Part shown: positions 37,146 to 47,626 of the stretch, piece by piece
How the letters are laid out: every line of letters starts with the position of its first letter
Numbering within the stretch: position 1 is the stretch's first letter
Assembly (NCBI GenBank): GCA_001803205.1
Contig: MHBE01000005.1
Location: forward strand, 62,001-126,000
Reading direction: 5' to 3'
Length of the DNA stretch: 64,000 nucleotides
Origin: Lentisphaerae bacterium GWF2_38_69
GTDB lineage: Bacteria; Verrucomicrobiota; Lentisphaeria; Victivallales; GWF2-38-69
Notes under the pieces: generated by a model
Databases searched by the model: none
What the model saw: the letters and a program-made list of their open reading frames with translations, nothing else
What the model was told of the DNA's origin: nothing
Program-made: the position numbers and the translations under genes

Positions 37146-39899
37146 ATGCCTGATAAAAACCAGAGTTCTGAACAGAAAGCAAGAGACAATATTGATAAGC
37201 AGCTTAATCTTGCCGGGTGGTCAGTACAGGACAAGAACAGTATAGATTTGAATGCCGGGCTCGGCGTGGCAGTCAGAGAGTATCAGACTGAAATTGGCCC
37301 TGTTGACTATGCGCTTTTTGTTGATGGCAAAGCCTGCGGCGTAGTTGAAGCCAAGAAGGAAGAAGAAGCTTTTCGGATGACTGTGCATGAAAGACAGGCC
37401 GGGGATTATGCTGACAGCAAACTCAAATATATTGCGAAAAGCCCGCTTACATTTGTCTATGAAAGCACAGGAATAATTACTGTATTTGCCGACAGAAGAG
37501 ATTCAAAACCAAGATTCAGGCAACTCTTTTCATTTCACAAACCTGAGACGCTTTTAGAATGGATGAATCAGGACAAGGCTTTGAGAAGTAGATTTCTCGA
37601 TCTTCCTGAGCTGCACAAAGAAGGATTGCGAGATTGCCAGTATAGAGCGATTACCAACCTCGATGTTTCTTTCAAGGAGAATAAGCCCAGAGCGCTTATC
37701 CAGATGGCTACCGGAAGCGGGAAAACCTATACTGCAATTACAGCTATTTACCGTTTACTGAGATTCTCAAAAGCCAAAAGAATTCTTTTTCTTGTTGATA
37801 CAAAGAATCTTGGAGAGCAGGCCGAACAGGAGTTTATGTCGTTTACTCCGAATGATGACAACCGCAAATTCGCCGAGCTATATAATGTTCAGCGGCTCAG
37901 TTCTTCCTATGTCGCGCCTGATAGCCAGGTTTGCATAAGCACAATTCAGAGAATGTACTCTATCCTGAGAGGAGAAGAACTCGATGAGTCGGCAGAAACT
38001 ATTAATCCGAACGAAATCAAACCTATAGAAATACCAAGAGATGTTGAATACAATCCAAAAGTTCCTCCCGAATTCTTTGATTTTATAGTTATAGACGAGT
38101 GCCACCGCTCCATTTACAATTTGTGGAAACAAATTCTTGATTACTTCGATGCCTTCCTGATTGGTTTGACTGCTACTCCCGACTCCAGGACTTTCGGTTT
38201 CTTCAATGAAAATATTGTTAGCGAATATTCGCATGAAGACGCTGTAGCCGACGGAGTAAATGTGGGATATGAAGTCTATCTGATTGAAACAAAGGTCTCT
38301 CAGTCAGGCGGTTTTCTGCCGATGAATGAATATGTGGATGTAAGAGAGAAGCTTACCAGAGCAAAGAAATGGAAACAGCTTGACGAAGATATCGAGTACA
38401 GTTCCAGGCAGCTTGATAAGGATATAGTCAATTTCAGCCAGATAAGAAATATAATCAAAACTTTCAGGCACAAACTTTCCGAAATATTCCCAGGCCGCAG
38501 CGAAATCCCCAAAACTCTCATATTCGCCAAGACAGACAGCCACGCTGAAGACATAATAAAGATTGCCAGAGAGGAATTTGACGAAGGGAATGAGTTCTGC
38601 AAAAAGATTACCTATCAGTCTGAAGAAGATCCGAAATCAATTCTGGTCTCCTTCCGAAATGAGTATAACCCCAGAATAGCCGTTACGGTTGATATGATTG
38701 CTACAGGAACAGATGTAAAACCGCTCGAGTGCCTTCTCTTTATGCGGGATGTTAAGTCCAGGAACTATTTTGAACAGATGAAAGGGCGCGGAACAAGAAC
38801 TCTGGGTTACGACGACCTCAAAAAAGTTACTCCATCGGTTATTACAAATAAGACTCATTTTATTATTGTTGATGCCGTAGGCGTTACAAAATCTCTTAAA
38901 ACTGACAGCCGACCTCTTGAGAGGAAACCAAAGGTTTCATTAAAGGATTTATTCTACGGCGTTATGATGGGTTTGAATGAGGAAGATATCTTTCTTTCCC
39001 TGGGCGGAAGACTGGCAAGAATTAATAAGGAAATGAGCGAAACTCAAAGAGAAAAATTCAAAGAACTTGCCAAAGGGACGACTCTTCCTGATGTGATCCA
39101 TAACCTTCTTAATGCTTTTAACCCCGATAAGATTGAAGATAGAGCAAGAGAGAAATTCAAGATTCCGGATAGTTCGCCCATAACCGAAGCACAGCAGAAA
39201 GAAATTCAAAATGAGCTTATCAAAAGGGCTTCTACTTCTCTGACCGGAACTCTATTTAACTTCATTGAAGACACCAGGAAAGCCAACGAACAGATAATCG
39301 ATACCATCAATATTGATGAAACGACTTTTGCCGGATGGGACAAGGATTCAGCCAATAAGAATGAACTCCTGATAGAGAGTTTCAGAGAATTTATAGAACA
39401 GAACAAAGACGAAATAACTGCCCTGAGCATCTTCTACAATCAGCCTTCAAAACTCAAGGAAATAACCTATTCCATGATGAAAGAGGTTCTTGATCTCATC
39501 AAAACAAGAAAACCCGCTCTGGCTCCTCACAATGTTTGGCGGGCTTACGAAAATCTCGATAAGGTTAAAAAGAATACTTCTCCCAAAAATGAACTCACCG
39601 TATTGGTTTCGCTGATTCGAAATATCGTTCGTGTTGATAGGGAACTTGTTCCCTTTGAAACTACTGTAAACGCTAACTTCAAAAACTGGATATTTAAAAA
39701 GAATGCGGGGCATAAACAGTTTACCGAAGAGCAGATGAGTTTCTTGCGAATGATCCGTGATCATGTAATTACTTCAATGAGATTTGAAGCCGGAGACTTT
39801 GAACATATCGAACAGGGAATGCTTGGCCGCGCATACAAATCTTTCGGCAAAGAACTATATTCAACTATCGACGAACTCAACGCAGAACTGGTGGGGTGA
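37146..39899 (+). CDS. hsdR: Type I restriction enzyme, R (motor/nuclease) subunit
   Basis: 917 residues. The N-terminal nuclease has the PD-(D/E)xK pattern with Asp54 in PVDYALFV and Glu68-Ala-Lys70 in GVVEAKK. The helicase follows: Walker A MATGSGKTYTA (about 184-194), VIDECHRS box II, GLTATPDS box III, VTVDMIATGTDVKP and FEQMKGRGTRT (box VI). The C-terminal 250 residues match the EcoEI_R type. HsdR translocates and cuts unmodified DNA with HsdM and HsdS. It opens the island; 192 bp without a recognisable gene separate it from lpxB. Confidence 0.95.
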   Translation: MPDKNQSSEQKARDNIDKQLNLAGWSVQDKNSIDLNAGLGVAVREYQTEIGPVDYALFVDGKACGVVEAKKEEEAFRMTVHERQAGDYADSKLKYIAKSPLTFVYESTGIITVFADRRDSKPRFRQLFSFHKPETLLEWMNQDKALRSRFLDLPELHKEGLRDCQYRAITNLDVSFKENKPRALIQMATGSGKTYTAITAIYRLLRFSKAKRILFLVDTKNLGEQAEQEFMSFTPNDDNRKFAELYNVQRLSSSYVAPDSQVCISTIQRMYSILRGEELDESAETINPNEIKPIEIPRDVEYNPKVPPEFFDFIVIDECHRSIYNLWKQILDYFDAFLIGLTATPDSRTFGFFNENIVSEYSHEDAVADGVNVGYEVYLIETKVSQSGGFLPMNEYVDVREKLTRAKKWKQLDEDIEYSSRQLDKDIVNFSQIRNIIKTFRHKLSEIFPGRSEIPKTLIFAKTDSHAEDIIKIAREEFDEGNEFCKKITYQSEEDPKSILVSFRNEYNPRIAVTVDMIATGTDVKPLECLLFMRDVKSRNYFEQMKGRGTRTLGYDDLKKVTPSVITNKTHFIIVDAVGVTKSLKTDSRPLERKPKVSLKDLFYGVMMGLNEEDIFLSLGGRLARINKEMSETQREKFKELAKGTTLPDVIHNLLNAFNPDKIEDRAREKFKIPDSSPITEAQQKEIQNELIKRASTSLTGTLFNFIEDTRKANEQIIDTINIDETTFAGWDKDSANKNELLIESFREFIEQNKDEITALSIFYNQPSKLKEITYSMMKEVLDLIKTRKPALAPHNVWRAYENLDKVKKNTSPKNELTVLVSLIRNIVRVDRELVPFETTVNANFKNWIFKKNAGHKQFTEEQMSFLRMIRDHVITSMRFEAGDFEHIEQGMLGRAYKSFGKELYSTIDELNAELVG

Positions 39900-39966
39900 A
39901 TGAATTTATTTAATATGTGTGATAACAAGTTTTGTTTATCCAATAATACACTTCAAAGAAACAAGT

Positions 39967-40293
39967 ATGAATAAAGTCGATAATTCTTATAGTTATATAA
40001 AATTCTTAAAAAATAATATCACATTTTTTATCTTACATATTTTTATATTATCAATTACATGTTGTATTGCATTTTTCTGCAATAAATTCATTTCATTTCT
40101 CTTTGGCATTCAAATTAATAAGATCTTTAATTTTTCCTATATAAGCCTGGAACAAACTAATTTATTTGAATATTTCAAGTTACTTATAATTCTGTTTTTT
40201 ATCATCGCCAGTTCAATTGAGGTTATAAAACTTCTTTATAGATTGTTCCGAGGTAGCATCCTTATAAAGAAGCAAAAGGCAAGGAAAAGATGA
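39967..40293 (+). CDS. Small membrane protein of unknown function in the restriction island
   Basis: 108 residues from ATG 39967 (MNKVDNSYSY). Two hydrophobic helices are at about residues 16-45 and 66-88, and the C-terminus is strongly basic (LIKKQKARKR). No recognised domain. It overlaps the start of the large membrane protein that follows by 4 bp, so the two are translated together. Base composition is more A+T rich than flanking genes. An ATG 16 codons upstream is possible but would approach the hsdR stop. It may form a complex with the next protein. Confidence 0.65.
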   Translation: MNKVDNSYSYIKFLKNNITFFILHIFILSITCCIAFFCNKFISFLFGIQINKIFNFSYISLEQTNLFEYFKLLIILFFIIASSIEVIKLLYRLFRGSILIKKQKARKR

Positions 40294-42764
40294 AGATATT
40301 TAGAACTGATTGTAATACAACTGCTATTATACCAACATTTCTATTCACTTTGGCTATTTTAGCATCTCTAGAAATTATTGTAATATTTTGCTATACGCTT
40401 GATATATTTAAGGGTCATAAAATCTGGTTAACAGCTATTTTACTGTTTCTTGCACTGTTTTTGTTCAATACACCAAAATTAAGACAGACTTGTACTATAA
40501 GAATTCTTCGAGGAATAGTATGGATAATTAATTCCATAAAAAGAATCAAAGCTCAATTTAGCAAAAATCCATATAACTATTTTTGGATTATAACTATTTT
40601 CAGTTTTACCATAATACTATTTTTTTACATCTATTTGGTTGATGGCTTTATCCGGTTTTCTTGCTTAAAGCTAGAAACAGGTAATACCTTGGCTCTAACA
40701 CTCCTGAGTACATTTATTCCATTTATTTTTGCAGGAGTCACATATTCAAAAAGTAGGCTCTCAAAAATTCTACCTGTTAAAATTGTAGACATTTGCTATG
40801 GAAGAGAGTTTTTCTTTGCTTGCGCTGTACAAATCATAATTTTCTCCTTATCTTTTTTAGCTCCTTTTTTGCAAATGAAATTTCATTTAGAGCAAACATT
40901 TCAAATAACATTGACTGGGGTTTCATTTGTGTCTGCATTGATTTTTATAGGAGTAATGTTTGAGATATCCAAACTTCATATTTCATTAGGTTATTTTAGG
41001 GAGAAAGAAACAAAAAAACTGAGAAACTTATTTATAAAGGATATCCCAGATTGTCCTATAAAAGGGGCGCTATGGTATAGAATTTATAGTTCTTATATTA
41101 TTGGCATTATTCCTATGACACTTAATAGAATAGCCCATCCATTAACACCACAGAAAGAATGCTACGAAACTGCCAAAAGCACATTAGATATTTTTTTTAG
41201 TATAGTAAAGAATTTTATAAGAGATGGGTATTTAGCCGATACAAGTATTTGCCTTAGCGAATTAACTGAATACGCAAAAGAATATTACTATTGTCGTCAA
41301 AATTATAGTGACACTTCTGATGAGGTCAATTTATACATTACTAATGAGTTTAAATTAATTATAGAAAACTGTGCCAACAAAGAGAGGGAAAAATTTCTTG
41401 AATTATTTCTTAAGCCAATAGAAACTATTGGATTATCTACATGTAAATATAAAAAAATTGGGATGAGCTCAAATAGCTTAATTTATGGGTGGTGTGAATT
41501 AATCAAAAACAGTGCTATTATTACTGCAAATCTTGAGAATTCAATTTTTACTGGGAGTGTGATTACTGTCCTAGGAGACATAGCTTGTAAAGATTTAGCG
41601 GATGAGAATAAAGCAATAAGAGAAATAGAAACATTAAAACAGTTAGGCTTATTATTCGCAAAATCAAAGTGGTACTACCATTACTGCATGGTTTCCAATT
41701 GTTTTACTGCCTTAAATAAAATATTGAAGGCATATTTTGAAACATTGCCTACCCAGTTCCATACTTCTAATTGTTATTTTTTAAAGAGTTATTGGTTTGA
41801 AGCTTATCATATCATTTTGACTGAGAAATTGAAAAATTTCCAAGATAGTTTCTTTTATAACCCGTTTTCAGAAATTATCCCCCCTGTTATCCACCCATTA
41901 TTAAACCCTCATACTCTTCCTGTAGCATATGAATATAGCCTTAATGAAACTTTAAATGGCAATACTTTTAAGAGTATTCTAGAATCCTTGCAATCAATAG
42001 AAGAAAGACATTTACAAGAAAACTTATTTGAAATAAGACTTAACTTGCTTCTAATTCACGATTTGTATATTAGTCTAGCCGTATCACCAATTGTACAATC
42101 ATCTTCAATTTATGGTAATTTTGTTCAAACTATAGTTTCTCTTGTTTATATAGACCTAAAAGCAACAATAAAAATGGAATATTTTAAAGATGAGTGGGTT
42201 AGTGCATTAGTAGAAAAATATTCTAAATTGTTTAAGAGGTTTATAATCTTATTCGAGGAGGGAACTAAAAAGAATAGTAATCATTTGCTTGACAGCGAAA
42301 TGAATACCTTAATATCAATTCCAGCTATTTCTCTAGCCTATAGAGATAAAAACTGTGCTGAATTAGTAGAAAATCTTATTAGAGACTTCAAAGAGATTCT
42401 TTGCAATATATTAGAAATTTCAGGAAAAAATAACTGTACTCATACTAAGGATACTATATTGGGATACATTTTATTACTTGCAGGCTGGTTAAAAATCTCA
42501 AACAGTTTCCTCAATATAAGAGAGGAACTTGAATCCATATTGAAAGTACATAAAAGAACGAGAACTTCTTATGGATTTGAATCAGAATATATTTCCTATG
42601 GCCTTCCATCAGGGCATTTAATGCATGACAAATGGCATTTGTTCCCTTCGGCGCTATGGGAACCTAACTTACAAAGCAAAATAGATGAAGAACTAATGAA
42701 AAAAGATGAACTTATAGAATATGCAAAACAATTTATAGATGTCGAAGTTAAACATCTTTTTTAA
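40290..42764 (+). CDS. Large membrane protein of unknown function in the restriction island
   Basis: 824 residues. The first 230 residues have about six hydrophobic helices (near 13-36, 43-60, 97-119, 128-148, 170-192, 203-226). The remaining 590 residues are soluble, helix-rich and lack any ATPase, nuclease or protease motif I can see; cysteines are frequent (about 20) but not in metal-binding spacing. A conserved-looking end, ISYGLPSGHLMHDKWHLF, is near 770. It is A+T rich with more AAA/ATA codons than its neighbours, which suggests recent transfer. Its place between hsdR and hsdS suggests a defence accessory role; this is inference. Confidence 0.75.
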   Translation: MKIFRTDCNTTAIIPTFLFTLAILASLEIIVIFCYTLDIFKGHKIWLTAILLFLALFLFNTPKLRQTCTIRILRGIVWIINSIKRIKAQFSKNPYNYFWIITIFSFTIILFFYIYLVDGFIRFSCLKLETGNTLALTLLSTFIPFIFAGVTYSKSRLSKILPVKIVDICYGREFFFACAVQIIIFSLSFLAPFLQMKFHLEQTFQITLTGVSFVSALIFIGVMFEISKLHISLGYFREKETKKLRNLFIKDIPDCPIKGALWYRIYSSYIIGIIPMTLNRIAHPLTPQKECYETAKSTLDIFFSIVKNFIRDGYLADTSICLSELTEYAKEYYYCRQNYSDTSDEVNLYITNEFKLIIENCANKEREKFLELFLKPIETIGLSTCKYKKIGMSSNSLIYGWCELIKNSAIITANLENSIFTGSVITVLGDIACKDLADENKAIREIETLKQLGLLFAKSKWYYHYCMVSNCFTALNKILKAYFETLPTQFHTSNCYFLKSYWFEAYHIILTEKLKNFQDSFFYNPFSEIIPPVIHPLLNPHTLPVAYEYSLNETLNGNTFKSILESLQSIEERHLQENLFEIRLNLLLIHDLYISLAVSPIVQSSSIYGNFVQTIVSLVYIDLKATIKMEYFKDEWVSALVEKYSKLFKRFIILFEEGTKKNSNHLLDSEMNTLISIPAISLAYRDKNCAELVENLIRDFKEILCNILEISGKNNCTHTKDTILGYILLLAGWLKISNSFLNIREELESILKVHKRTRTSYGFESEYISYGLPSGHLMHDKWHLFPSALWEPNLQSKIDEELMKKDELIEYAKQFIDVEVKHLF

Positions 42765-42799: not shown

Positions 42800-44218
42800 A
42801 TGTCCCAGATTAATAATACACCAAAAGAATGGACCGCTAAAAGACTTGGAAATATTTGCAATATTATTATGGGGCAATCTCCTCCATCTTCTACTTACAA
42901 CTCAAGAAATATAGGTCTCCCTTTTTTTCAAGGTAAAGCTGAATTTACTGAACTACATCCAATAGTAGAGAAATGGTGTAGTGAGCCTAATAAAATTGCT
43001 GAACCTAATGATATTTTACTTTCTGTTCGTGCTCCAGTCGGAACAACTAATATTGCTAGCCAAAGATGTTGTATTGGTAGAGGTCTAGCAGCAATACGCT
43101 ACCCTTGCCATTTGTTTTTGTTTTACTATCTTAGACATATAAAAAATGAACTGGAAAAACAAGGAACCGGAACAACTTTTAAGGCTATTTCAGGAGAAAT
43201 ATTAAAAAACACAAACTTGATCTTACCCCCTCTTCACGAACAGCAGAAGATTGTTGAGGCCATTGAGGAGTTGTTTTCTGAGCTGGACAAGGGAGTTGAG
43301 AGTCTGAAGAAGGCAAAAGAACAGCTCAAAGTCTATCGTCAGTCCGTTCTGAAAAATGCCTTTGAAGGAAAGCTGACGGAAAAATGGAGAGAGCGAAACA
43401 AAGAGAAGTTAGAACCGCCAGAACTCCTTCTTGAGAAAATAAGGAAAGAACGGGAAGAAACAGCGAGAAAGCAAGGCAAAAAGCTTAAACCGGTAAAATC
43501 TATTACCGAGCAAGAGCTTTCTACATTGCCAAAACTACCAAAAGAATGGCTGTGGGTAAAAATAGGTAACATATTTGATGTTTTTATAGGGGCAACTCCA
43601 AGTAGAAAAATAGCAGAGTATTGGAATGGTAAAATAAACTGGGTTAGTAGCGGAGAAGTCAACTTTAAGAATATCTATTCTACTAAGGAAAAAATAACTG
43701 ATTTGGGATTAAAAAATTCATCTACTTTATTGCATCCGATAGATACAGTTATGCTTGCTATGATAGGAGAAGGCAAAACAAGAGGGCAAGTTTCTATATT
43801 AAAGGCAGAAGCGGCACATAATCAAAATACAGCAGCACTTGAAGTAAATCCTAAGTATTTTCTATCTAATTTGCTTTACTATTATTTTATTTTTGTATAT
43901 GAGAAGACAAGGAATATAGGGTCTGGAAATAATCAAAAAGCATTAAATAAGGAAAGGATTCAGAACATACATTATCTGTTATTTTCAAAGTTAGAACAAC
44001 TTCAGATCGTTCAGGAAATTGAAACTCGGCTTTCTGTTTGTGACGAGATGGAGAAGACGGTTGAAGAGAGTTTGAAAAAGGCGGAGAAGCTGAGACAGTC
44101 AATGTTGAAAAAGGCTTTTGAAGGGAAGTTGACAGAGAAGTGGCGTCAGGAAAACCCTGAACTGATAAGCGGTGAAAACTCCGCCGAAGCGCTGTTAAGC
44201 AAAATAAAAAAGAATTGA
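42800..44218 (+). CDS. hsdS: Type I restriction enzyme, S (specificity) subunit
   Basis: 472 residues with two target recognition domains (about 10-145 and 245-395), each followed by a helical conserved region. The conserved regions repeat one another: LPPLHEQQKIVEAIEELFSE with KNAFEGKLTEKWRERN, and LEQLQIVQEIETRLS with KKAFEGKLTEKWRQEN. The DNA of these repeats is also alike (about 43320-43395 and 44072-44150), which allows recombination between half-subunits. The recognised sequence cannot be predicted. It sits apart from hsdM, with darTG between. Confidence 0.93.
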   Translation: MSQINNTPKEWTAKRLGNICNIIMGQSPPSSTYNSRNIGLPFFQGKAEFTELHPIVEKWCSEPNKIAEPNDILLSVRAPVGTTNIASQRCCIGRGLAAIRYPCHLFLFYYLRHIKNELEKQGTGTTFKAISGEILKNTNLILPPLHEQQKIVEAIEELFSELDKGVESLKKAKEQLKVYRQSVLKNAFEGKLTEKWRERNKEKLEPPELLLEKIRKEREETARKQGKKLKPVKSITEQELSTLPKLPKEWLWVKIGNIFDVFIGATPSRKIAEYWNGKINWVSSGEVNFKNIYSTKEKITDLGLKNSSTLLHPIDTVMLAMIGEGKTRGQVSILKAEAAHNQNTAALEVNPKYFLSNLLYYYFIFVYEKTRNIGSGNNQKALNKERIQNIHYLLFSKLEQLQIVQEIETRLSVCDEMEKTVEESLKKAEKLRQSMLKKAFEGKLTEKWRQENPELISGENSAEALLSKIKKN

Positions 44219-44221
44219 TTT

Positions 44222-44809
44222 ATGGATAGTAGGATTAAATATTTATACAACATAATGCCAATGATTAACATCTCATCAGTTATCAGGCATGGAATACTAT
44301 CTAATGCTTTGGCTTGCCGGATTCAGCATAGTTCAATTGCCGATAATACTGTTCAGAATAGAAGAGATAGCGTTCATATCCCAGGAGGAAAACCTTTACA
44401 CAACTACGCAAACCTCTATTTTGATGCCAGAAACCCAATGATGTACAGAAGAAAAGAAGAGTTTAATGAAATATGCGTGCTATGTGTATCAACAGAAGTT
44501 ATGAAGTTTTCGGGAGTTGTTTTAACTGATGGCAATGCTTCGAGCGGGTATAACAGATTTTTCAGCGTTGAAGAAGGTTTATCAGCAATTTGTTTTGATA
44601 AGGTATTTGCCAGAGATTGGACATATCCTGATACATTTGAATACTACAGAAGAAAACGGATAAAATGTGCTGAAGTTCTAGTGCCGGACAAAATTGGTTT
44701 TGAATACATCAAAAGCGCTTTTGCTGCAACTAAACTTGCAGAGTATAAGCTAAGAGGTTTGTCCTGGCCGTTGCCGATTGAGATTAATCCTGATATATTC
44801 TTTATGTAA
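44222..44809 (+). CDS. darT: DarT-like DNA ADP-ribosyltransferase toxin
   Basis: 195 residues. DarT transfers ADP-ribose from NAD+ to thymine bases of single-stranded DNA. Family blocks: IKYLYNIMPMINISSVIRHG at the N-terminus, LHNYANLYFDARNPMMYR (about 60-77, NAD-contact region), and the catalytic glutamate in RIKCAEVLVPDKIG (about 140-153). It begins 3 bp after the hsdS stop and 12 bp before its antitoxin darG. DarTG pairs are known phage-defence toxin-antitoxin systems. Confidence 0.9.
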   Translation: MDSRIKYLYNIMPMINISSVIRHGILSNALACRIQHSSIADNTVQNRRDSVHIPGGKPLHNYANLYFDARNPMMYRRKEEFNEICVLCVSTEVMKFSGVVLTDGNASSGYNRFFSVEEGLSAICFDKVFARDWTYPDTFEYYRRKRIKCAEVLVPDKIGFEYIKSAFAATKLAEYKLRGLSWPLPIEINPDIFFM

Positions 44810-44821
44810 GAAGGTAATACT

Positions 44822-45940
44822 ATGATAAAGATACTAATTGGAAATATTTTTGACAGCAAAGCCCAGACAATAGTTAATACAGTGAACTGTGTCGGCGTAA
44901 TGGGCAAGGGCATTGCTCTTGAGTTTAAGAAACGCTTTCCTGAAATGTTCAATGAATATAAGGACAAGTGTGACAAAAGCTTGGTTAAGCCAGGTGTTCC
45001 TTATATTTACAGTAATCTGCTTGGCGGCAGCATAATAAATTTTCCGACAAAAGATCACTGGCGCTCTTCTTCGCATCTTGAATTCGTAGTTAAAGGATTG
45101 GATATCTTTCTTGAGAAATATCAAGACTGGGGAGTTAAGTCTGTGGCTTTTCCCCCTCTGGGATGCGGAAATGGCGGTCTCGAATGGGAGATGGTAGGCA
45201 GAATAATGTACCAGAAATTATCAAATCTTGATGTTCCAGTTTCAATATATGCTCCTTTTGGAACTCCACCGTCTCAAATAAAAGAGGATTTTCTATCAGC
45301 AAAAGTGGAGATTGATGTATCTGAAATTAAAGGAAAGCATCAATCATCAATTTTGCCGGAATGGTATGTTCTTCTTGAAGTTATGTACAGACTCCAGAGA
45401 CAAACTTATGCCAATCCCGTAGGAAGAGTGATTTTTCAGAAACTCTGCTATATACTTACTTTGTTGGGTTTAAAGACGGATTTGAATTTTGTTCAGCACA
45501 GTTATGGGCCGTTTTCTGCAGATATAAAAGAAATGATAAACATTCTTGCCAATGCAAACCTTATATCTGAAGTCCAGCTTGGAAAAATGAATGCGATCCG
45601 TGTTACTGAGGATTATAAGAATATCAGAGATAAGTATAACGATATCATCATCAAAAATGAAAAGAATATTCTCAGGACTGTCGATCTTTTCTGCCGGATA
45701 AGGAATACCGACCAGGCTGAAGAAATTGCAACTGTCATTTATTCTGTTCACAAACTAAAAAAAGATTTTCCTTATAGAGATATAGAAGAATCAGAAGTGC
45801 TTGACTTCATTCTTAATAGCTGGAAAAGTCATTGGGCTGATAAAAAAGATGCTATCAGCAATACAATTAGAAATCTTGTTCTGCTCAAATGGATTAAACT
45901 CAAATTTAGCGATTCGCTAGACGCTGTTCAGTACTTCTAA
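44822..45940 (+). CDS. darG: DarG-like macrodomain ADP-ribosylglycohydrolase antitoxin
   Basis: 372 residues. Residues about 1-155 are a macrodomain: IVNTVNCVGVMGKGIALEFK binds ADP-ribose, and FPPLGCGNGGLEW is the second ligand loop. It removes ADP-ribose from DNA. The C-terminal 200 residues contain a helical block (FQKLCYILTLLGLKTD, then HSYGPFSADIKEMI) that resembles Panacea/SocA-like antitoxin domains and in DarG contacts the toxin. AAGG lies before the ATG. It directly follows darT. Confidence 0.9.
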   Translation: MIKILIGNIFDSKAQTIVNTVNCVGVMGKGIALEFKKRFPEMFNEYKDKCDKSLVKPGVPYIYSNLLGGSIINFPTKDHWRSSSHLEFVVKGLDIFLEKYQDWGVKSVAFPPLGCGNGGLEWEMVGRIMYQKLSNLDVPVSIYAPFGTPPSQIKEDFLSAKVEIDVSEIKGKHQSSILPEWYVLLEVMYRLQRQTYANPVGRVIFQKLCYILTLLGLKTDLNFVQHSYGPFSADIKEMINILANANLISEVQLGKMNAIRVTEDYKNIRDKYNDIIIKNEKNILRTVDLFCRIRNTDQAEEIATVIYSVHKLKKDFPYRDIEESEVLDFILNSWKSHWADKKDAISNTIRNLVLLKWIKLKFSDSLDAVQYF

Positions 45941-46144: not shown

Positions 46145-47626
46145 ATGAACGCACAGACAATAGTTTCAAAAGTTTGGAGTTTTTGTAATACACTTAGAGA
46201 CGACGGCGTAAGCTATGGTGATTATTTGGAACAGCTTACCTATCTGCTATTTTTAAAGATGGCTGATGAATATTCCAAACCGCCTTATAACAGGGAAACA
46301 GGAATACCGCAGGAATATAACTGGTTATCTCTTACTTCCAAAAAGGGCGCTGAACTGGAAACCCATTACATCATGCTTCTGCAGGAACTTGGGAAGAAGA
46401 AAGGCATATTGGGACAGATTTTTACAAAGTCCCAAAATAAGATTCAAGACCCCGCCAAACTTAGCCGACTTGTTCAAATGATTAATGAAGAAGATTGGGT
46501 AATAATGGGCACTGATGTCAAAGGCGATATATATGAAGGTTTACTTGAGAAGAATGCCGAGGATGTGAAAAGCGGTGCTGGTCAGTATTTCACGCCAAGG
46601 CCTTTAATCAGGGCTATGGTGGAGTGTTTAAAGCCTGAACCTATGAAGACTATCGCCGACCCTGCATGTGGAACAGGAGGCTTTTTCCTGGCATCTTATG
46701 ACTATCTGACTAACAACAGATTTTTTAAATTGGATAAAAACCAAAAAGAGTTCCTGAGATTTAAAACCTTTTCCGGCAATGAAATAGTTCCCAATACAAG
46801 AAGGCTGGCTTTGATGAACCTCTTTCTTCATAATATTGGAGCCTTAGACACTGCTGCAATGATCTCTTCAAATGACTCTCTTGTGGCTGATAATGGAGAA
46901 CGGTTTGATTATGTCCTTACAAATCCTCCATTCGGGAAGAAAAGCAGTATGTCGTTTACTAACGATGAAGGGGAACAGGAAAAGCAGGAACTAACTTACA
47001 ACAGACAGGATTTCTGGGCTTCTACATCAAACAAACAGTTAAACTTTGTTCAGCATATACGAACGATACTCAAGGCTGACGGAAAAGCCGCCGTTGTAGT
47101 CCCCGATAATGTTCTGTTTGAAGGAGGCGCAGGGGAAACAGTAAGAAAGAAGCTTCTGGACAATACCAATCTTCACACAATACTCAGGCTGCCTACCGGT
47201 ATATTTTATGCGAACGGAGTTAAGGCCAATGTGATATTCTTTGATAACAGGCCTGCTTCAAAAAATTCATGGACTAAAGAAGTATGGTTTTACGATTATA
47301 GAACGAATATTCACCATACGCAGAAAAAGAACCCTCTCAAATTCGAAAACCTGAAGGATTTTATAGAATGTTATAATCCGAAAAATATAAATCTCAGGCA
47401 AGAAACCTGGTCTGAAGAGAATCCACAAGGAAGATGGAGAAAATACAAATACGAAGATATCCTTGCAAGAGATAAAACCAGCCTTGATATTTTCTGGCTC
47501 AAAGATGAAAGCCTTGCCGATCTGGATAATCTTCCTGAACCTGATGTTTTGGCTCTGGATATTATCGATAATATCGAATCAGCCCTGGATAACTTTAAGC
47601 AAATCATCAGTGTATTGCCTAACTGA
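46145..47626 (+). CDS. hsdM: Type I restriction-modification, M (methyltransferase) subunit
   Basis: 493 residues. HsdM makes N6-methyladenine at the site chosen by HsdS. The N-terminal helical domain (LRDDGVSYGDYLEQLTYLLF) precedes the methyltransferase: GAGQYFTPRPLIRAMV, SAM motif ADPACGTGGFFLA (about 175-187) and catalytic motif IV NPPFG (about 261). AAGG lies before the ATG. It is the last gene of the island; the usual order hsdM-hsdS-hsdR is inverted and interrupted here. Confidence 0.95.
   Translation: MNAQTIVSKVWSFCNTLRDDGVSYGDYLEQLTYLLFLKMADEYSKPPYNRETGIPQEYNWLSLTSKKGAELETHYIMLLQELGKKKGILGQIFTKSQNKIQDPAKLSRLVQMINEEDWVIMGTDVKGDIYEGLLEKNAEDVKSGAGQYFTPRPLIRAMVECLKPEPMKTIADPACGTGGFFLASYDYLTNNRFFKLDKNQKEFLRFKTFSGNEIVPNTRRLALMNLFLHNIGALDTAAMISSNDSLVADNGERFDYVLTNPPFGKKSSMSFTNDEGEQEKQELTYNRQDFWASTSNKQLNFVQHIRTILKADGKAAVVVPDNVLFEGGAGETVRKKLLDNTNLHTILRLPTGIFYANGVKANVIFFDNRPASKNSWTKEVWFYDYRTNIHHTQKKNPLKFENLKDFIECYNPKNINLRQETWSEENPQGRWRKYKYEDILARDKTSLDIFWLKDESLADLDNLPEPDVLALDIIDNIESALDNFKQIISVLPN

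Follow-up and report, generated by a model that had tools for sequence, protein, structure and literature searches.

A two-gene membrane module, probably of phage defence, between hsdR and hsdS of a type I restriction-modification operon

That defence genes can be discovered through their location within other systems is well established (PMC12988326). In enteropathogenic E. coli, DarTG2 is embedded in a type I restriction-modification system (RMS) as part of a phage-active island, RptR-RMS-DarTG-M48 (RRDM). This island has the regulator gene rptR at its start and a gene for an M48 peptidase at its end, and its hsdS-hsdR site has been named a potential hotspot of recombination for defence systems (PMC12255303). 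In the VPI-2 island of V. cholerae, two formerly unknown genes within a type I restriction-modification (RM) operon, tgvAB, proved to be anti-phage and to encode a GmrSD-type modification-dependent restriction system (PMC11411939).

The window analysed here, a stretch of 64,000 nucleotides from Lentisphaerae bacterium GWF2_38_69, contains a type I RM operon whose genes all point in one direction, in the order hsdR-pair-hsdS-darT-darG-hsdM, the pair being two membrane protein genes that are not themselves hsd genes:

37146..39899, + strand: hsdR, type I restriction subunit, 917 aa (ResIII 5.1e-41; EcoEI_R_C 3.2e-30)
39967..40293, + strand: small membrane protein, 108 aa, ATG start (open reading frame, hydropathy)
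40290..42764, + strand: large membrane protein, 824 aa (open reading frame, hydropathy, loop charges, chance estimate)
42800..44218, + strand: hsdS, specificity subunit, 472 aa (Methylase_S 3.1e-35; PADLOC Specificity_I 5e-74)
44222..44809, + strand: darT, ssDNA-modifying ADP-ribosyltransferase toxin, 195 aa (PF14487 1.6e-35; PDB 7omu 1.4e-14)
44822..45940, + strand: darG, macro-domain antitoxin, 372 aa (Macro 5.8e-18; PADLOC DarG 9.1e-89)
46145..47626, + strand: hsdM, type I methyltransferase, 493 aa (N6_Mtase 1.3e-72; PADLOC MTase_I 1.1e-199)

The successive intergenic gaps from hsdR to hsdM are 67, -4, 35, 3, 12 and 204 bp. Since promoter-like and terminator-like matches within the array were no more frequent than in shuffled sequence, a single transcription unit is opposed only by the 204-bp gap before hsdM. 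The pair occupies the space between hsdR and hsdS (slot 1), on the same strand as the hsd genes; the space between hsdS and hsdM (slot 2) holds a DarT domain followed by a macro-domain DarG, that is, a DarTG toxin-antitoxin system (44222-45940), which the earlier note on this DNA did not mention. As in the RRDM island, DarTG lies inside a type I RM operon and variable genes occupy an internal site; however, the DarTG site is hsdS-hsdR in that island and hsdS-hsdM here, and the RRDM island has no membrane pair of the present kind (PMC12255303). With TgvAB the pair shares the placement of two genes of initially unknown function within a type I RM operon (PMC11411939), but TgvAB is of the GmrSD type, whereas the present proteins are predicted to be membrane-embedded and gave no sequence match. 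The pair is new in sequence, not in its kind of arrangement.

In two genomes of the same family no match to hsdR was found past E = 1e-20, which fits horizontal acquisition of the RM operon. The insertion could not be dated by an empty site, as lpxB and the glycosyltransferase gene were far apart or on separate contigs in the five relatives compared. A distant second hsdR/helicase-like match (E = 1.5e-30) is present in the same genome outside the window (G000:C61:9144-10037).

Coordinates and hydropathy bore out the earlier description of the pair as a 108-residue double-helix protein and an 824-residue protein with six helices, encoded between hsdR and hsdS with an overlap of 4 bp; the overlapping letters are ATGA. 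The small protein has two strong predicted transmembrane (TM) helices, at about residues 20-38 and 72-90, and a Lys/Arg-rich C-terminus; an alternative in-frame GTG upstream, at 39919, would extend it to 124 aa. A purine-rich stretch, aaggaaaag, immediately precedes the ATG of the large gene. An open frame of this length has a probability of about 5e-31, as estimated from base composition, so the large frame is not accidental. Its product has six predicted TM helices within residues 13-227, followed by a mainly helical C-terminal part of about 600 residues; within this part, residues 584-602 and 723-741 are weakly hydrophobic. Loop charges alternate along the TM part, and the N-terminus and the C-terminal part are therefore both predicted to lie inside (N-in/C-in). 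Self-comparison of the large protein revealed no internal repeats, and no catalytic or pore motif was identified in the pair. AlphaFold models made without an alignment showed helices only and were unusable, both for the whole large protein (pLDDT 41) and for residues 248-480 (pLDDT 44).

The pair had also been described as unlike its neighbours in composition. This is true of GC content, which is 24% in the small gene and 30% in the large one, compared with 37-41% in the remaining genes of the locus. Codon usage gives a different picture for the large gene, whose divergence (0.074) barely exceeds that of ordinary genes in the window (0.027-0.072); the value for the small gene is clearly higher (0.117), this gene being very short. 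With codon usage so close to ordinary in the large gene, the GC contrast is due in part to the make-up of a hydrophobic protein rich in Lys, Ile and Phe.

Neither protein matched a family in Pfam, NCBIfam, PHROGs or PADLOC, and matches to PDB sequences did not rise above chance level. To this extent the absence of a known motif, as the earlier note had it, stands. In particular, no PADLOC-DB 2.0.0 model matched either protein at E <= 1; the lack of sequence homology to any defence protein in this and the other libraries weighs against a defensive role. Homology to a housekeeping transporter, named beforehand as a refuting result, was not found: no transporter family of Pfam or NCBIfam matched (limit E <= 10, HMMER filters on). 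For the large protein the search of PDB sequences listed only chains of EcfT, a component of ECF transporters (4huq and 4hzu), aligned with residues 28-116 at E = 3, a level expected by chance for hydrophobic sequence.

The large protein was also sought, as the only query, in about 1,260 different genomes, and no credible relative was found at the sensitivity of BLAST and HMMER; in a sample of genomes, a family that is rare or strongly diverged would be missed at this sensitivity. The partly overlapping sets comprised 100 relatives, 388 genomes of the phylum, 137 of the order and 149 of the class, 25 genomes with the same RM subtype, and samples from three other phyla, of 346 genomes (phylum of L085, a Bacteroidetes MAG), 299 (phylum of L087, Legionella) and 146 (phylum of L074, Vampirovibrio). 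Two weak matches, in G099 (E = 0.004) and G696 (E = 9.8e-4), contain four and two internal stops, respectively, and were attributed to chance. A tblastn search of phages and plasmids gave nothing, and neither did peptide-pattern scans of GTDB and IMG/VR contigs; these scans require exact 8-residue matches and so reach close relatives only. Across the genome, phage, plasmid and contig searches the large protein is thus a singleton, known from this one example.

Since the proteins themselves carry no informative sequence, their position was examined in related type I RM loci, 80 of them obtained by an hsdM scan covering many phyla and 18 from hsdR homologues in the phylum of the window. The order hsdR-[slot 1]-hsdS-[slot 2]-hsdM is general across loci of this RM subtype. 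Of 78 loci, 31 have more than 300 bp in slot 1; for slot 2 the same is true of 66 among 82. All three hsd genes were placed in 75 loci, and 67 of these carry cargo in one slot or both; hsdS boundaries are approximate in these counts, because hsdS diverges fast, and short fills may be overcounted. In many loci of the subtype hsdR and hsdS directly abut. A large protein with multiple N-terminal TM helices, like the one described here, was found in the slots of no other surveyed locus. A DNA search of E. coli genomes with hsdM gave one 74-bp match only.

Pfam and PADLOC scans of the slot cargo (105 open reading frames of at least 120 aa, taken from the slots) showed what else these sites receive. 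Pfam matches included Schlafen AlbA_2 (9), Fic (8), AAA_15 ATPases (5), subtilase (4), AAA (4), GmrSD_N (2), PIN (2) and SIR2 (2), and PADLOC matches included IetA (4) and IetS (4). A full-length Avs4 (2328 bits) lies in slot 1 of L097, an OLD/GajA-like protein (OLD/Gabija-like nuclease, 3e-42) in that of L128, and a KAP NTPase in that of L127. A second DarT-DarG was found in a Nitrosomonas MAG (L060:7500-9214), in slot 2 of the same RM subtype, as in the present locus. The slots that hold the pair and DarTG here are thus filled in related loci by unrelated defence genes (Avs4, OLD/GajA-like, IetAS, Fic, Schlafen, DarTG). Cargo that is not obviously defensive was represented by three IS200-like transposase matches and a CAAX-protease-like protein in L125.

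As the pair is undescribed and related loci carry known defence genes at its site, it is best read as a defence module, probably one against phages that has not been described before, a conclusion resting on position and not on recognised sequence. The suggestion of such a module in the earlier note thus holds in that the pair is absent from every library searched and occupies a site of known defence genes elsewhere; the killing of the infected cell, or leakage from it, that was proposed along with it stays conjectural. More specifically, we consider the chances about even that the pair is an accessory anti-phage cargo module in slot 1, acting as a sensing membrane effector beside DarTG in slot 2. 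Counting against it are the single known example, the lack of a recognised catalytic or pore motif and of a usable structure, the absence of a similar protein from the slots of the other surveyed loci, and the slot cargo that is not evidently defensive.

From the 4-bp overlap we infer that the two proteins work together. The large protein would be an inner-membrane protein with six TM helices in an N-in/C-in arrangement, whose helical cytosolic part of about 600 residues may sense a signal of infection and switch the membrane part, and the translationally coupled two-helix protein may be its partner, serving as a gate, a pore component or a restraint. Once restriction has failed, the pair could depolarise the membrane of the infected cell or make it permeable, and in this way back up restriction and DarTG; a leak of this kind would resemble the action of membrane effectors in general. 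Kiwa, a system consisting of the membrane protein KwaA and of KwaB, is likewise a two-gene, membrane-associated anti-phage system. The likeness is one of analogy only, as the helix number and protein sizes differ and the pair has no PADLOC match.

Other origins of the pair have to be weighed against this. It could be a non-defence passenger, such as a transporter, channel or envelope protein, recombined into an RM locus that collects genes. The missing homology to defence proteins would agree with that, the low GC content suggests a foreign origin, and the slots do receive transposases and a CAAX-protease-like protein; however, their identifiable cargo is largely defence-related, no transporter profile matched, and the long frame is intact and coupled over 4 bp. 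We regard this origin as rather unlikely. An accessory role in the RM complex itself, with the pair as a membrane anchor or sensor that brings HsdRMS to the site of phage DNA entry, or as its regulator, is suggested by the location within the operon, flanked by hsdR and hsdS. Comparable genes are missing from most loci of this RM subtype, and hsdR and hsdS often abut; HsdRMS therefore has no need of the pair, and this role appears very improbable.

The pair might also be a toxin-antitoxin or addiction module stabilising the operon, in which the large protein acts as the toxin and the small hairpin as its restraint, or the reverse. The overlap of the two genes is in keeping with this, as are the genuine toxin-antitoxin pair DarTG in the neighbouring slot and the Fic and PIN proteins among the slot cargo. 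No toxin-antitoxin family matched, though, and 824 aa is unusually large for a membrane toxin; as a separate explanation we consider it quite improbable, and it overlaps with the reading as a defence module, because many toxin-antitoxin pairs act in defence.

The stronger version of the defence reading, in which the pair is the first member of a new family of membrane effectors against phages, composed of a six-helix protein with a helical cytosolic sensor of about 600 residues and a two-helix partner, and forms a third layer behind HsdRMS and DarTG, is put forward only tentatively. If it is true, three defences would be stacked in one operon (cleavage of unmodified DNA, attack on DNA by DarT and membrane shutdown), and the anti-phage effectors would gain a membrane family so far unannotated. 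The survey makes both internal slots of this widespread RM subtype, hsdR-hsdS and hsdS-hsdM, promising sites for undescribed defence genes.

Some further slot-1 contents were recorded in the course of the survey. In L133 (3734-5036) the slot encodes two proteins, one soluble (291 aa) and one for which four TM helices are predicted (142 aa); neither matches Pfam or PADLOC, and they are possibly another undescribed membrane-associated pair. In L097 (418-6200) the Avs4 homologue is preceded by a 272-aa protein that has no Pfam or PADLOC match. L120 (5205-6860) encodes a DUF6119 protein (1.7e-121) with no match in PADLOC, and L103 (4641-5354) a DUF5131 protein, for which the PADLOC candidates are PDC-M41B and PDC-M30B.
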